Below, piece after piece: positions 7,043-10,911 of a DNA stretch of 10,911 bases. The notes beneath the pieces are model-generated. The model worked only from the letters and a program-made list of their open reading frames with translations. It had not been told where the DNA came from and did no database searches. Source of the stretch: Gemmatimonadota bacterium (GTDB lineage Bacteria; 4572-55; J002); assembly GCA_003697105.1 (NCBI GenBank), contig RFFQ01000045.1, forward strand, positions 1 to 10,911, read 5' to 3'. Each line of letters opens with the position of its first letter. The first letter of the stretch is position 1. Position numbers and translations under genes: made by a program.

Positions 7043-7591
7043 ATGAAGATTTATACCAAAACAGGTGATACGGGGGAGACCGGTTTATTTGGCGGACCGC
7101 GGGTCTCTAAGGATCATTTGCGGATTCAGGCGTATGGCACGGTTGACGAGCTCAATTCCACGCTAGGGGTTGCCTTAGTTCACTGTTCTGATGAGGCTTT
7201 GCGCGAAATGCTACTTCACATTCAACATCAGTTATTTGTGCTAGGGGCAGATTTAGCGACGCCGCTGGAGACGAAATCGAGCTACATTCAGCGTATTCCG
7301 GCGGAAGCGGTCACGCAATTGGAGCAGTGGATTGACCAATTTGAGGCAGAATTGCCTCCGCTTACCCACTTCATTTTACCCGGGGGATCGATCTGTGGGG
7401 CGTTTTTACATCAGGCACGAACCGTTTGCCGTCGCGCAGAACGGTATATCATTGCGTTGTCACACGAGGCGTCGCTGAGTGAATTTGTGATTCCGTATAT
7501 CAACCGGTTGTCAGATTATCTGTTTGACGCCGCCCGGATTGCCAATGTTCGTGCCGGTACGACTGAAACTATCTGGAATTCCAACTCATAG
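7043..7591 (+). CDS. PduO-type ATP:cob(I)alamin adenosyltransferase
   Basis: This cytoplasmic enzyme transfers the 5'-deoxyadenosyl group of ATP to cob(I)alamin, giving adenosylcobalamin for radical isomerases. The N-terminal ATP-binding signature YTKTGDTGETGLFGG (residues 4-18) is exact for the family. Helical motifs follow: YGTVDELNSTLG (31-42), FILPGG (110-115), the basic cluster HQARTVCRRAER (123-134) and YINRLSDYLFDAAR (152-165). At 182 residues it is full length for the PduO/EutT-unrelated trimeric class. AGGATGAG (7026-7033) serves as the ribosome-binding site. It is the first gene of a two-gene operon with the MEMO-family gene, which starts 13 bases after its stop. No cobalamin-dependent enzyme gene lies within the window, so the user of the cofactor is not shown. 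Confidence 0.93.
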   Translation: MKIYTKTGDTGETGLFGGPRVSKDHLRIQAYGTVDELNSTLGVALVHCSDEALREMLLHIQHQLFVLGADLATPLETKSSYIQRIPAEAVTQLEQWIDQFEAELPPLTHFILPGGSICGAFLHQARTVCRRAERYIIALSHEASLSEFVIPYINRLSDYLFDAARIANVRAGTTETIWNSNS

Positions 7592-7604
7592 AGAGGAGAG
7601 AGGT

Positions 7605-8783
7605 ATGGAAAAGCCGAAATTACGCACCGATATTCAGGTGACCCCCTATCAGGATGCAGAAAATGTGGGCGTGCTGATTCAAGATGCCCTAATTGAAGGG
7701 CGCACGATGATGCTGAGTGACGGTGCGGTCTTGCTGATGTCTTTTATGGATGGTACAAGAACTATCCGTGATATTCAATCCGAAATTATGCGGCAAACGG
7801 GACAACTGGTTAATTCGGAAGAGATCGAACAATTTGTGCAACTGCTAGACAACCATTATTTACTGGATAACGCGAACTACCGCCAACGATTACGCACCCT
7901 TGCCGCCGAATACAAGCGGCTTGAGGCTCGCCCCCCCCTGATGGCAGATGCAGGCTATCCCGCTGACCCCCAACAATTGCGAGCGTTTTTGGATGACGTC
8001 TTCGCTCAGAGTGAAAATAGCCATCTGGATGGACGGCTCCCCGAAAAATTAAGCGGAATTGTCGCCCCCCATATCGACATCCCGCGCGGGCAGAACACCT
8101 ACGCCAAGGTTTACGGAGCGTTACGCAAATATGATCCCGCACAAACCTACATTGTACTCGGCGTCAATCATCAATACCCCACCCAGAACCCCTTTATTGC
8201 TACAGATCGCGCCTACCAGACACCGCTAGGCAAATTGCCGGTGGATACCGGTCTGCTCCATCAGCTCAACCAGCGGCTGGATTGGGATATACTGGAGGGA
8301 GAAATTGCCCACCGGGGGGAACATTCCATTGAGTTTCCGGCGCTTTTCCTGCGCTACCTTTACCCAGAGGCAGAGATGAAAATTGTCCCCATTTTAAGCA
8401 ACTATTACGATAAAACGGATGAGCGAGTTGAACGATTTATCCGGGCATTACGCGAGATTATCGCCGGGCGGGAAGATATTGTCCTGATTTCCAGTGTTGA
8501 TTTTTCGCATATTGGGCCGCAATTTGGCTGGCAACGGGAGGTCACACCGGCGGATATTGCCAGCACGGAACGGGAAGATCGGCTAACCATCGCGTTTTTG
8601 GAAAAAAATGACCCGGATGGTTTTTATGCGGATATTATGAAGGATCAAAACCGGCGAAATATTGATGCGTTAGGTGCCACGTATGTGTTTCAACGGGTAC
8701 TGGATAAACCCGGGGTGTTGATCCAGTACGAGCAAGCGTTTGACCCGTTGAATACGGTCACCTTTACCGGACTCATTTTTTAG
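7605..8783 (+). CDS. amrB: MEMO-family protein (AmmeMemoRadiSam system protein B) with extra N-terminal domain
   Basis: The protein has 392 residues, taking ATG 7605 as start because it follows a strong purine-rich site (AGAGGAGAGAGG, 7590-7603). An in-frame ATG at 7524 would overlap the upstream gene by 68 bases without such a site. Residues about 150-392 are a MEMO domain, related to the LigB class of extradiol dioxygenases. Visible conserved pieces are APHIDIPRG (154-162, H156), GVNH (H189), the segment AHRGEHSIEFPA (235-246, H236 and H240) and VDFSHIG (298-304, H302). The Cys-Gly pair usually found near the end of MEMO domains appears replaced by IDALGA (353-358). The first 90 residues, rich in short helices (around DGAVLLMSFMDGTRTI and EEIEQFVQLLDNHYLL), look like a PqqD-like winged-helix domain; this is an inference. 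The family's role in bacteria is not established. Neither an AMMECR1 gene nor a radical-SAM partner is nearby. Confidence 0.85.
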   Translation: MEKPKLRTDIQVTPYQDAENVGVLIQDALIEGRTMMLSDGAVLLMSFMDGTRTIRDIQSEIMRQTGQLVNSEEIEQFVQLLDNHYLLDNANYRQRLRTLAAEYKRLEARPPLMADAGYPADPQQLRAFLDDVFAQSENSHLDGRLPEKLSGIVAPHIDIPRGQNTYAKVYGALRKYDPAQTYIVLGVNHQYPTQNPFIATDRAYQTPLGKLPVDTGLLHQLNQRLDWDILEGEIAHRGEHSIEFPALFLRYLYPEAEMKIVPILSNYYDKTDERVERFIRALREIIAGREDIVLISSVDFSHIGPQFGWQREVTPADIASTEREDRLTIAFLEKNDPDGFYADIMKDQNRRNIDALGATYVFQRVLDKPGVLIQYEQAFDPLNTVTFTGLIF

Positions 8784-8871
8784 CTTGCTTGAGACCGCCG
8801 CAGACCCCGGGAAACGGGCTATTGAGTTTCAAATCCTGCCATAGAGATTCCAATGGTCAAACACTAATAAA

Positions 8872-8910
8872 AAGAGATGTCATCTATTAAGATGACATCT
8901 CTTCTTTTTT
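8872..8910. terminator. Bidirectional Rho-independent terminator
   Basis: AAGAGATGTCATCT (8872-8885) and its exact complement AGATGACATCTCTT (8890-8903) form a perfect 14-bp stem with the loop ATTA. On the plus strand C then six T residues follow (8905-8910), ending the adenosyltransferase-MEMO operon. On the minus strand the stem is followed by TTTATTAG, giving a run of five T residues with the stem end, so it can also stop the surface-protein transcript after it passes through the heptamer array. Confidence 0.9.
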
Positions 8911-9021
8911 AGCCGCTAGCTTCTAGCTTCTAGCCGCTAGCTTCTAGCTTCTAGCCGCTAACTTCTAGCTTCTAGTTTCTAGCTTCTAGCTTCTAGTTTC
9001 TAGCTTCTAGCTTCTAGCCTC
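8910..9021. repeat. Heptanucleotide tandem array, 16 units of TAGCTTC type
   Basis: Sixteen contiguous 7-base units run without any gap from the last T of the terminator to the base before the surface-protein stop codon. Nine units are exactly TAGCTTC; the variants are TAGCCGC (units 1, 4, 7), TAACTTC (unit 8), TAGTTTC (units 10, 13) and TAGCCTC (unit 16). Variants fall almost wholly in every third unit, giving a 21-bp higher-order repeat. Read from the minus strand, the direction of the adjoining gene, the unit is GAAGCTA. The array contains 14 CTAG tetramers and stop codons in all frames, so it is non-coding. It forms the 3' untranslated region of the surface-protein message. It lacks the spacer structure of CRISPR. 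Confidence 0.95.
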
Positions 9022-10911
9022 TTATTTCAGAAGCACCATCTGTTTGATGTCACTGAAGTTATCGGTGCTAACCCGGTAGAAGTAAACGCCGGATTTCACG
9101 GCTTGGCCATTGGCATCCGTACCGTCCCAAATCAATTGATGATAGCCGGCTTCCATCGTGCCATCCACCAATGTGCGTACCAAACGACCATTGACATCAT
9201 AGATTGCCAACGCAACGGATGCGCTCACCGGCAGATCAAATTGGATTGTGGTGCGCGGGTTAAATGGATTCGGGAAGTTTTGGCTGAGGCGATAGTGGTT
9301 CGGTATGTTCAACCCGTAACCGACCTTCACATTGCCTTCCGTCAGGGTGGCATTCAGACTGCCTTCGTTGTAGAGGAAGTCATCCAACGTAATGGTAGTT
9401 TCGCTATCCAATTCCCCGACAACACTAAATTCAAGGTTGAATAGCACGCCTTCGCCTTCTAGTGCTTTCACGCCATACGCCACCACTTGAATCCCGGTTT
9501 CTGTATTGGAAGTCACCAATGTCATCGCTTCCGATAAAGTACCTTCCGTCAGGATACGGTTGAAGTGGATCACGTTGGCATCAAATTGAACTGCCGTTTG
9601 GTAGGCGATAATGTCATCCTGAGTTAGGTCGCCAACGGTTACCGGAATCACAATGGTTTCTTCTGGCAGACCGTAGGTGGAACCGACGGTGGTTTCCACG
9701 GAGCGTGTCGCGACTGTTTTGCTGTCAAGTTGTTTACCGCTCGGGCGATCCAGTGCGGATTGCCAGTTTCCACTGACATCACCGTAGAGCACCGCATCAA
9801 AGTTCTGGTCGAACATATCTTCTTCCAGCGGGGTGTAGCTGTAGCTCATGGGCATAAAGGTCCAGCTACCGGTCAGGGAACTTTGGGGGACATAGGCCGC
9901 GAACTGGGCAATTCGGGCGGCATCAAATGGAGTGATTTCGCCGTCACCGGTGACTTCACCCGCCAACTCCTGATATTCATTGAATTCGTACAGCCCGATG
10001 GAAGCCTGCGCGACCCGTGCGGCATCAAACGCCGTAATTGTGCGGTATCCCGGGTCGCCTTCAAAATCGGCGTTCAGCACGTAGTCTCCCGGGCGGCGAG
10101 AAACGACCGTAAAGTTGCCATCGGCATCGGTCAAGGCGGTGGTGGTCGTTGTACCGATCAGCGACACCAACGCACCGGCAATGGCTTCTTCGTTGCTCCA
10201 GTAAGCGATGTTCCCGCTTACCGCAGGACCTTCGCCACCGCCGCCGCCAACACCTTGAACGAGGAAGTAATCCACAAACCAACCCTTGTAACCTTGCGAG
10301 TTGGTCGCCCCAAAACGGAAGCGGAAGGTAACGGTTTCACCGGCATAATCCGTGAGATCAAAGACTGCCGGCACCCAATCGCCACTATTACCGGTATAAC
10401 CTGGACCACCGCTCAAACCGACAACGGTCGGATCGGGGTAGCCACCTTCGGGGTTAATAATATTCCAGCTATCACCGCCATCAACCGAAATTTGGATTTG
10501 ACCGCCATCCCAGCCATCATTGGTATCATACCAGTGGTAGAAGTTCAAGGCATAGGGTCCGACGGCGGCGGATAACTCAAATTCAGGGGTGGTCAGGTAC
10601 TGGCTGGAGGGACCGTTGTAGTTGCCATCCAAATCCGTACCCCAGCAATTTTCACCTTCATAAGCGGATGCGGGACCACCGTTCGGGGTGGGGGTGCCCC
10701 ATTCCCATTCGCCGGTACCACTAAAGCCACCGTCATCTCCTTCAAAACTTTGGACAAACTGCAATTCAAAGTTCAGGATGTTGGTTTGTCCGGCATCAAC
10801 CGTAAATTCCGTGATGGCTTCCTGGTAGTTCGGTGCGGCGCAATGCACGGTATAGGTGTAGTTGCCCGGCACATTTCCGAAGTCATAAAATCCATTTTCG
10901 TCCGTCATCAC
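9022..10911 (-). CDS. Multidomain secreted surface protein with dockerin-like, cohesin-like and C-terminal sorting domains (N-terminus beyond window)
   Basis: Only the last 629 residues are visible; the first codon here is GTG inside a domain, so the gene continues past the right edge. Order in the visible part: end of a carboxypeptidase-regulatory-like beta domain (1-50, DENGFYDFGNVPGNYTY); a MAM/jelly-roll-like module (about 54-220, FEGDDGGFSGTGEWEWGTP to GWFVDYFLVQ); a Gly-rich linker (221-227); a second regulatory-like domain (about 229-283, TDADGNFTVVSRRPGDYVL); a dockerin-like pair (about 285-340, ITAFDAARVAQ and GEVTGDGEITPFDAARIAQ); a cohesin-like domain (about 415-531, VQFDANVIHF to GEGVLFNLEFSV); and a C-terminal FlgD-like/type IX-style sorting domain (about 535-629, LSQNFPNPFNP, IYDVNGRLVRTL, SGVYFYRV, ending QMVLLK). 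It is probably exported and surface-attached or released; peptidase activity, if any, would lie in the missing N-terminal part. The stop codon touches the heptamer array. Confidence 0.88.
   Translation of the reverse strand: MMTDENGFYDFGNVPGNYTYTVHCAAPNYQEAITEFTVDAGQTNILNFELQFVQSFEGDDGGFSGTGEWEWGTPTPNGGPASAYEGENCWGTDLDGNYNGPSSQYLTTPEFELSAAVGPYALNFYHWYDTNDGWDGGQIQISVDGGDSWNIINPEGGYPDPTVVGLSGGPGYTGNSGDWVPAVFDLTDYAGETVTFRFRFGATNSQGYKGWFVDYFLVQGVGGGGGEGPAVSGNIAYWSNEEAIAGALVSLIGTTTTTALTDADGNFTVVSRRPGDYVLNADFEGDPGYRTITAFDAARVAQASIGLYEFNEYQELAGEVTGDGEITPFDAARIAQFAAYVPQSSLTGSWTFMPMSYSYTPLEEDMFDQNFDAVLYGDVSGNWQSALDRPSGKQLDSKTVATRSVETTVGSTYGLPEETIVIPVTVGDLTQDDIIAYQTAVQFDANVIHFNRILTEGTLSEAMTLVTSNTETGIQVVAYGVKALEGEGVLFNLEFSVVGELDSETTITLDDFLYNEGSLNATLTEGNVKVGYGLNIPNHYRLSQNFPNPFNPRTTIQFDLPVSASVALAIYDVNGRLVRTLVDGTMEAGYHQLIWDGTDANGQAVKSGVYFYRVSTDNFSDIKQMVLLK

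Follow-up and report, generated by a model that had tools for sequence, protein, structure and literature searches.

The window analysed here is the whole stretch of 10,911 nucleotides. At its right-hand end lies a minus-strand gene for a secreted multi-domain protein (9022..10911), cut by the window end and carrying a C-terminal FlgD_ig / Por_Secre_tail type IX sorting domain (Pfam). The TAA stop codon of this gene (9022..9024, minus strand; TTA on the plus strand) directly abuts a minus-strand array of 16 heptamers (8910..9021) with a 21-bp higher-order structure and the consensus GAAGCTA on the minus strand, which is TAGCTTC on the plus strand. The terminator hairpin of the minus-strand gene (8869..8906, minus strand; 17-bp stem, RNA -24.0 kcal/mol) lies on the other side, with a T-run at 8904-8910 on the plus strand, and the array starts on the last T of the terminator. 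That the array extends from this T up to the stop codon had been stated in the initial annotation and was borne out, and the positions of stop codon and terminator also support its statement that the array forms most of the 3' region of the message. The convergent neighbour is a plus-strand gene for a Memo-family protein (7524..8783), the true start of which is probably later than 7524, since the open reading frame overlaps the preceding gene. Because a T-rich run is found on both strands (8869-8910), the hairpin is probably bidirectional and serves the Memo-family gene too; if it does end that gene, the array would be transcribed only within the minus-strand message. Comparison of the window with Rfam gave no match. 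No array was found near the Memo orthologue in a genome of the same class, where the neighbours of the orthologue differ.

Numbered along the plus strand, units 1, 4 and 7 of the array read TAGCCGC, units 10 and 13 read TAGTTTC and unit 16 reads TAGCCTC; unit 8 is TAACTTC and the remaining units are TAGCTTC. The earlier description of sixteen in-phase heptamers with variants at every third unit, falling into two halves (GCCGC-type, then GTTTC-type), was correct at 8910-9021, with the small correction that the unit adjoining the stop (GAGGCTA) is degenerate. Self-similarity reached 0.92 at lag 21 and was lower at lag 7 (0.84) and lag 14 (0.83), and the lag-21 value was matched in 93 of 20,000 shuffles of unit order (permutation p ~0.005); both results support the proposed growth by 21-bp triplets. 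The array is a 7-bp tandem repeat, longer than expected by chance, in an intergenic location. It holds 14 CTAG tetramers (23 in the entire window), in a genome in which CTAG is ~5-fold depleted (223 vs 1,135 expected from base composition in a 291-kb sample), so the content singled out earlier as extreme is indeed so. With CTAG at each 7 bp the array has TAG in all six frames and could therefore never lie inside an open reading frame. Absence from open reading frames was accordingly rejected as a property of CTAG arrays: it is trivial, since stops in six frames force an intergenic location.

Searches of the 4.18-Mb assembly with 14-mers and with CTAGNNN found the window unit nowhere else, leaving it at a single locus. 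Other repeat units were sought in a 1.09-Mb sample of the genome and by pattern searches, which gave at least nine further heptamer arrays with the units GAAGGAT, GAAGGCG or GAAGGAG, on contigs C3, C10, C38, C39, C49, C61, C113, C177 and C199 (L132 14242-14402, L215 2801-2856, L218 3179-3423, L172 2-78, L219 2887-2921, L220 2980-3224, L221 2944-3020, L222 2640-3052 and L223 3405-3495). An upstream neighbour could be read for eight sisters and for the window array, and in all nine it is a gene of the same sense. The gene stop lies 0-21 bp from the array in the window and at C10, C49, C113 and C177; at C3, C38, C39 and C61 the gene runs into the array, which supplies the stop and adds an MKDEGGR-like C-terminal tail (genes with such tails are at L132, L172, L218 and L220). 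In the initial annotation a regulatory or 3'-end role had been held unlikely if the array were the only one of its kind in the genome or if such arrays were placed at random; the outcome is divided, as the repeat unit itself has no second locus, yet sister arrays exist, placed non-randomly, with nine of nine sense at a gene 3' end. One caveat on orientation is that a GAAGGAT array has stops on its sense strand only (its CG variant leaves one sense frame open), so that sense genes entering it are halted and antisense genes are not.

The genes upstream of the sister arrays are unrelated (a TPR protein, a DinG-like helicase, an LPG-synthase transmembrane protein, an SDR, a MoaC-MogA fusion and a peptidase C25), which argues against a shared regulon. 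A second gene with a type IX-like tail is present among them (peptidase C25 family with FlgD_ig, L221 1-2934), with a heptamer array 6 bp past its stop. At L222 3054-4106, MoaC and molybdopterin-binding (MoCF_biosynth) domains are fused in a single 351-aa frame.

Best self-similarity was found at lag 14, 21 or 28 in eight of the nine arrays compared, the window array included. The non-periodic block GAAGGCATYGGAAGG is common to the arrays at C10, C49 and C199; a fourth match, at C6, was set aside as chance, being coding sequence in a malate-dehydrogenase-like frame. Arrays at many different loci carry their AT/CG variants at the same unit position, and the CG found at every third unit in both the window array and the GAAGGNN arrays is no more than suggestive of kinship between them by sequence. 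Contigs C6, C20, C31, C39, C61, C113 and C199 end inside or beside such arrays; the assembly thus probably breaks there, which would undercount or shorten them.

The genome carries a second, frequent type of array, built of GAGTT plus 3-4 bases, for which 342 overlapping pattern matches were counted vs 0 for the reversed control. Such arrays were located at L132 14125-14241, L166 5097-5175, L188 141-166, L190 255-280, L214 2919-2977, L216 2600-2699 and L219 2676-2863, and also at L169, L182, L230 and L233. Of 16 cases, 12 have a gene boundary directly against the 5' side of GAGTT: in 7 this boundary is the start codon of a gene on the opposite strand, and in 5 it is the stop of a gene on the same strand. 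At three loci (C3, C38 and C49; L132 14125-14402, L218 2995-3423 and L219 2676-2921) the two types are joined in the coding-strand order STOP-(GAAGGAT)n-(AAACTC..)n-START, with AACTC octamers between the heptamers and the next start. Neither GAGTT nor GAAGGNN arrays were found in the one other genome of the phylum that was compared.

Similar arrays were then sought in other bacteria. The 18-mer CTAGAAGCTAGAAGCTAG was present in at least 119 stretches of GTDB genomes, vs ~7.5 expected by our arithmetic in random sequence of that size, with hosts among Gammaproteobacteria, Bacteroidota, Acidobacteria, Parcubacteria-type lineages, Firmicutes and others. One cultured bearer of a (CTAGAAG)n array beside a gene end is Zobellella denitrificans (L018 and L082). 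The 18-mer is rare per genome: in a domain-wide sample of 386 genomes, the window genome alone carried it. A period of 7 was found in 38 of 56 other short tandem arrays in 0.87 Mb of DNA flanking these loci, and units drift along the arrays of other bacteria, as slippage predicts. Of the longer CTAGAAG arrays in other bacteria, 28 of 33 were best at lag 7, whereas the window array was best at lag 21; this contrast in lag between the window genome and other bacteria is only suggestive, because each set was obtained by a different route. By simple longest-ORF gene calls, which were uncurated and were used in all comparisons across bacteria, arrays were enriched between convergent genes (27% vs 16-18%) and depleted between divergent genes (12% vs 20-27%), the latter being read as avoidance of promoters.

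Without correction, 61 of 120 gene 3' ends in other bacteria lay within 20 bp of an array vs 36 expected. With stop-donating arrays removed, 24 lay near stop codons vs 19.3 +/- 3.1 expected; the apparent attraction to stop codons arises because the arrays themselves create the stop. A general 3'-end role across bacteria was rejected on this ground, the proximity being gone after that removal. Strand bias at stop codons was weak in other bacteria (23:12 for overlapping arrays, 15:9 within 1-20 bp). A simple terminator finder picked up very few terminators next to arrays in these bacteria.

The array is probably an untranslated simple-sequence satellite, one member of a genome-specific, dispersed set of heptamer arrays tolerated at gene ends; this reading is favoured with appreciable reservation. 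Its growth would have come from the duplication of blocks of one unit (7 bp) and of three units (21 bp), presumably through strand slippage or unequal exchange, and it would persist because the promoter-free intergenic space between a stop codon and a terminator tolerates DNA with stops in all frames. It would be transcribed as 3' UTR in the GAAGCUA sense, would belong to the same set as the GAAGGNN arrays, and probably has no specific regulatory role. If arrays simply invade gene ends, some genes are expected to take their stop and an MKDEGGR-like tail from the array, as the four at C3, C38, C39 and C61 do. Two features are not accounted for by the satellite reading. The strict sense orientation at stops (9/9) exceeds what mere tolerance predicts, an estimate from intergenic proportions being ~0.5 per array and hence ~0.002 for nine, and the sharing of GAAGGCATYGGAAGG by three loci suggests copying between loci, beyond slippage alone.

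The sense orientation is what would be expected of a 3'-UTR element. As such, the sense-transcribed array would influence mRNA stability, ribosome clearance or the end of transcription in cis, or would be a binding site for an RNA-binding protein, with GAAGCTA and GAAGGAT playing the same role at different genes. The position of the window array between stop and terminator fits such an element, as does the preference of the G-rich strand for positions downstream of coding-strand open reading frames that was reported for GGGAATC-type heptamers (PMC4692102). The RNA of the window array was predicted to fold into a rod modestly better than shuffles (z -2.3), but the sister unit GAAGGAT gave no folding. 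CsrA, which would be the obvious protein to bind AGGAUG heptamers, was absent from the window genome and from the one other genome of the phylum compared (control genomes were positive), and GGA does not occur in the main units GAAGCTA, GCGGCTA and GAAACTA; a CsrA sponge with CsrB-like heptamers is excluded on both counts. The unrelated upstream genes, the loss of the 3' preference in other bacteria after correction and the four genes at which the array becomes coding also count against such an element, which is considered unlikely. The suggestion in the initial annotation of a protein-binding array or RNA element was accordingly not upheld, given the absence of CsrA, the z of -2.3, the unfolded GAAGGAT and, in other bacteria, a corrected stop proximity at the level of chance. 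Growth of the array driven by hairpins was rejected separately, since the single-stranded DNA showed no folding advantage over shuffles (z +0.96 and +1.58) and GAAGGAT lacks folding potential.

The sharing between loci would instead be explained by a dispersed family of actively copied arrays, spread by ectopic conversion, reverse transcription or a trans-acting enzyme with a preference for DNA just past stops. The block common to C10, C49 and C199, the AT/CG variants at the same unit position and the composites at C3, C38 and C49 would all be expected of such copying. However, neither conserved flanks nor an encoded enzyme was found, the window unit is single-copy in the genome, the C6 match to GAAGGCATYGGAAGG is an ordinary coding match, and gene conversion alone could yield the common block; active spread is judged quite unlikely. 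A bolder scheme is a coordinated, non-coding system of short-repeat arrays in this genome that would mark gene ends and be spread by copying that recognises gene boundaries. Its parts would be purine-rich heptamers lying sense on stops and AACTC-type 8/9-mers at starts or opposite-strand on stops, some of them joined as STOP-heptamers-octamers-START, with the window array as a diverged member. This system is put forward as speculative and quite unlikely.

Two further explanations are very improbable. The array could be a contingency locus, phase-variable or hypervariable, with a copy number that switches a neighbouring surface-protein gene, in keeping with the secreted, T9SS-tailed product of the upstream gene and the mutability of tandem repeats, but it lies past the stop, so that the number of units cannot alter a reading frame or promoter spacing, and sister arrays follow housekeeping genes. 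A six-frame translation barrier, in which CTAG at each 7 bp stops any readthrough, whatever its frame or strand, would exploit the fact that each CTAG is TAG on both strands and that the period cycles through all frames, but GAAGGAT arrays have no antisense stop and the CG variant keeps one sense frame open.

The window genome offers a clean case, in which arrays of different units are alike in strand, stop-codon placement and higher-order structure, and the want of quadruplex potential in the unit together with the absence of CsrA from the genome narrows the possible causes. It also exposes a trap, as arrays with stops in all frames look associated with stop codons merely by creating the stop. 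Cyanobacterial STRR are heptanucleotide tandem arrays dispersed in a genome; the window array belongs to another phylum and its CTAG unit, unlike theirs, is not dispersed, while the GAAGGNN units are.

Heptameric long simple sequence repeats of prokaryotes have been discussed (PMC4692102, PMC4679880), and in the SPADE survey of 7,006 genomes heptamer arrays, for which there is no clear clue to function, were more common than any other intergenic tandem repeat across a broad range of prokaryotes (PMC6344855). A proposal of Mrazek and colleagues, as cited in PMC4679880, is that slippage is favoured by polymerase contacts. The window array shares with this class its period of 7, its tandem arrangement and its intergenic location, and differs from the usual members in its 21-bp higher order and in the strict sense placement at stops in its genome. 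The GGGAATC and GGGGA(C/T)T repeats of Xanthomonas and Nostoc (PMC4692102) are likewise intergenic heptamers, rare between divergent genes and with a fixed-strand preference at the ends of open reading frames. GGGAATC repeats of Xanthomonas can form quadruplexes (PMC4692102), whereas the window units GAAGCTA, GCGGCTA and GAAACTA have no GGG, so that without a G-tract no quadruplex can form, and the window unit is single-copy in its genome. The TAACTGA direct repeats of marine Beggiatoaceae (PMC4679880) are also intergenic heptamer arrays scattered sporadically across phyla, but they lie mostly just upstream of start codons, and the window array has a different unit and lies downstream of a stop; the GAGTT/AACTC arrays of the window genome resemble them more than the window array does. 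The window array is thus a further case of the known intergenic heptamer-repeat class, with an unusually orderly placement in one genome.
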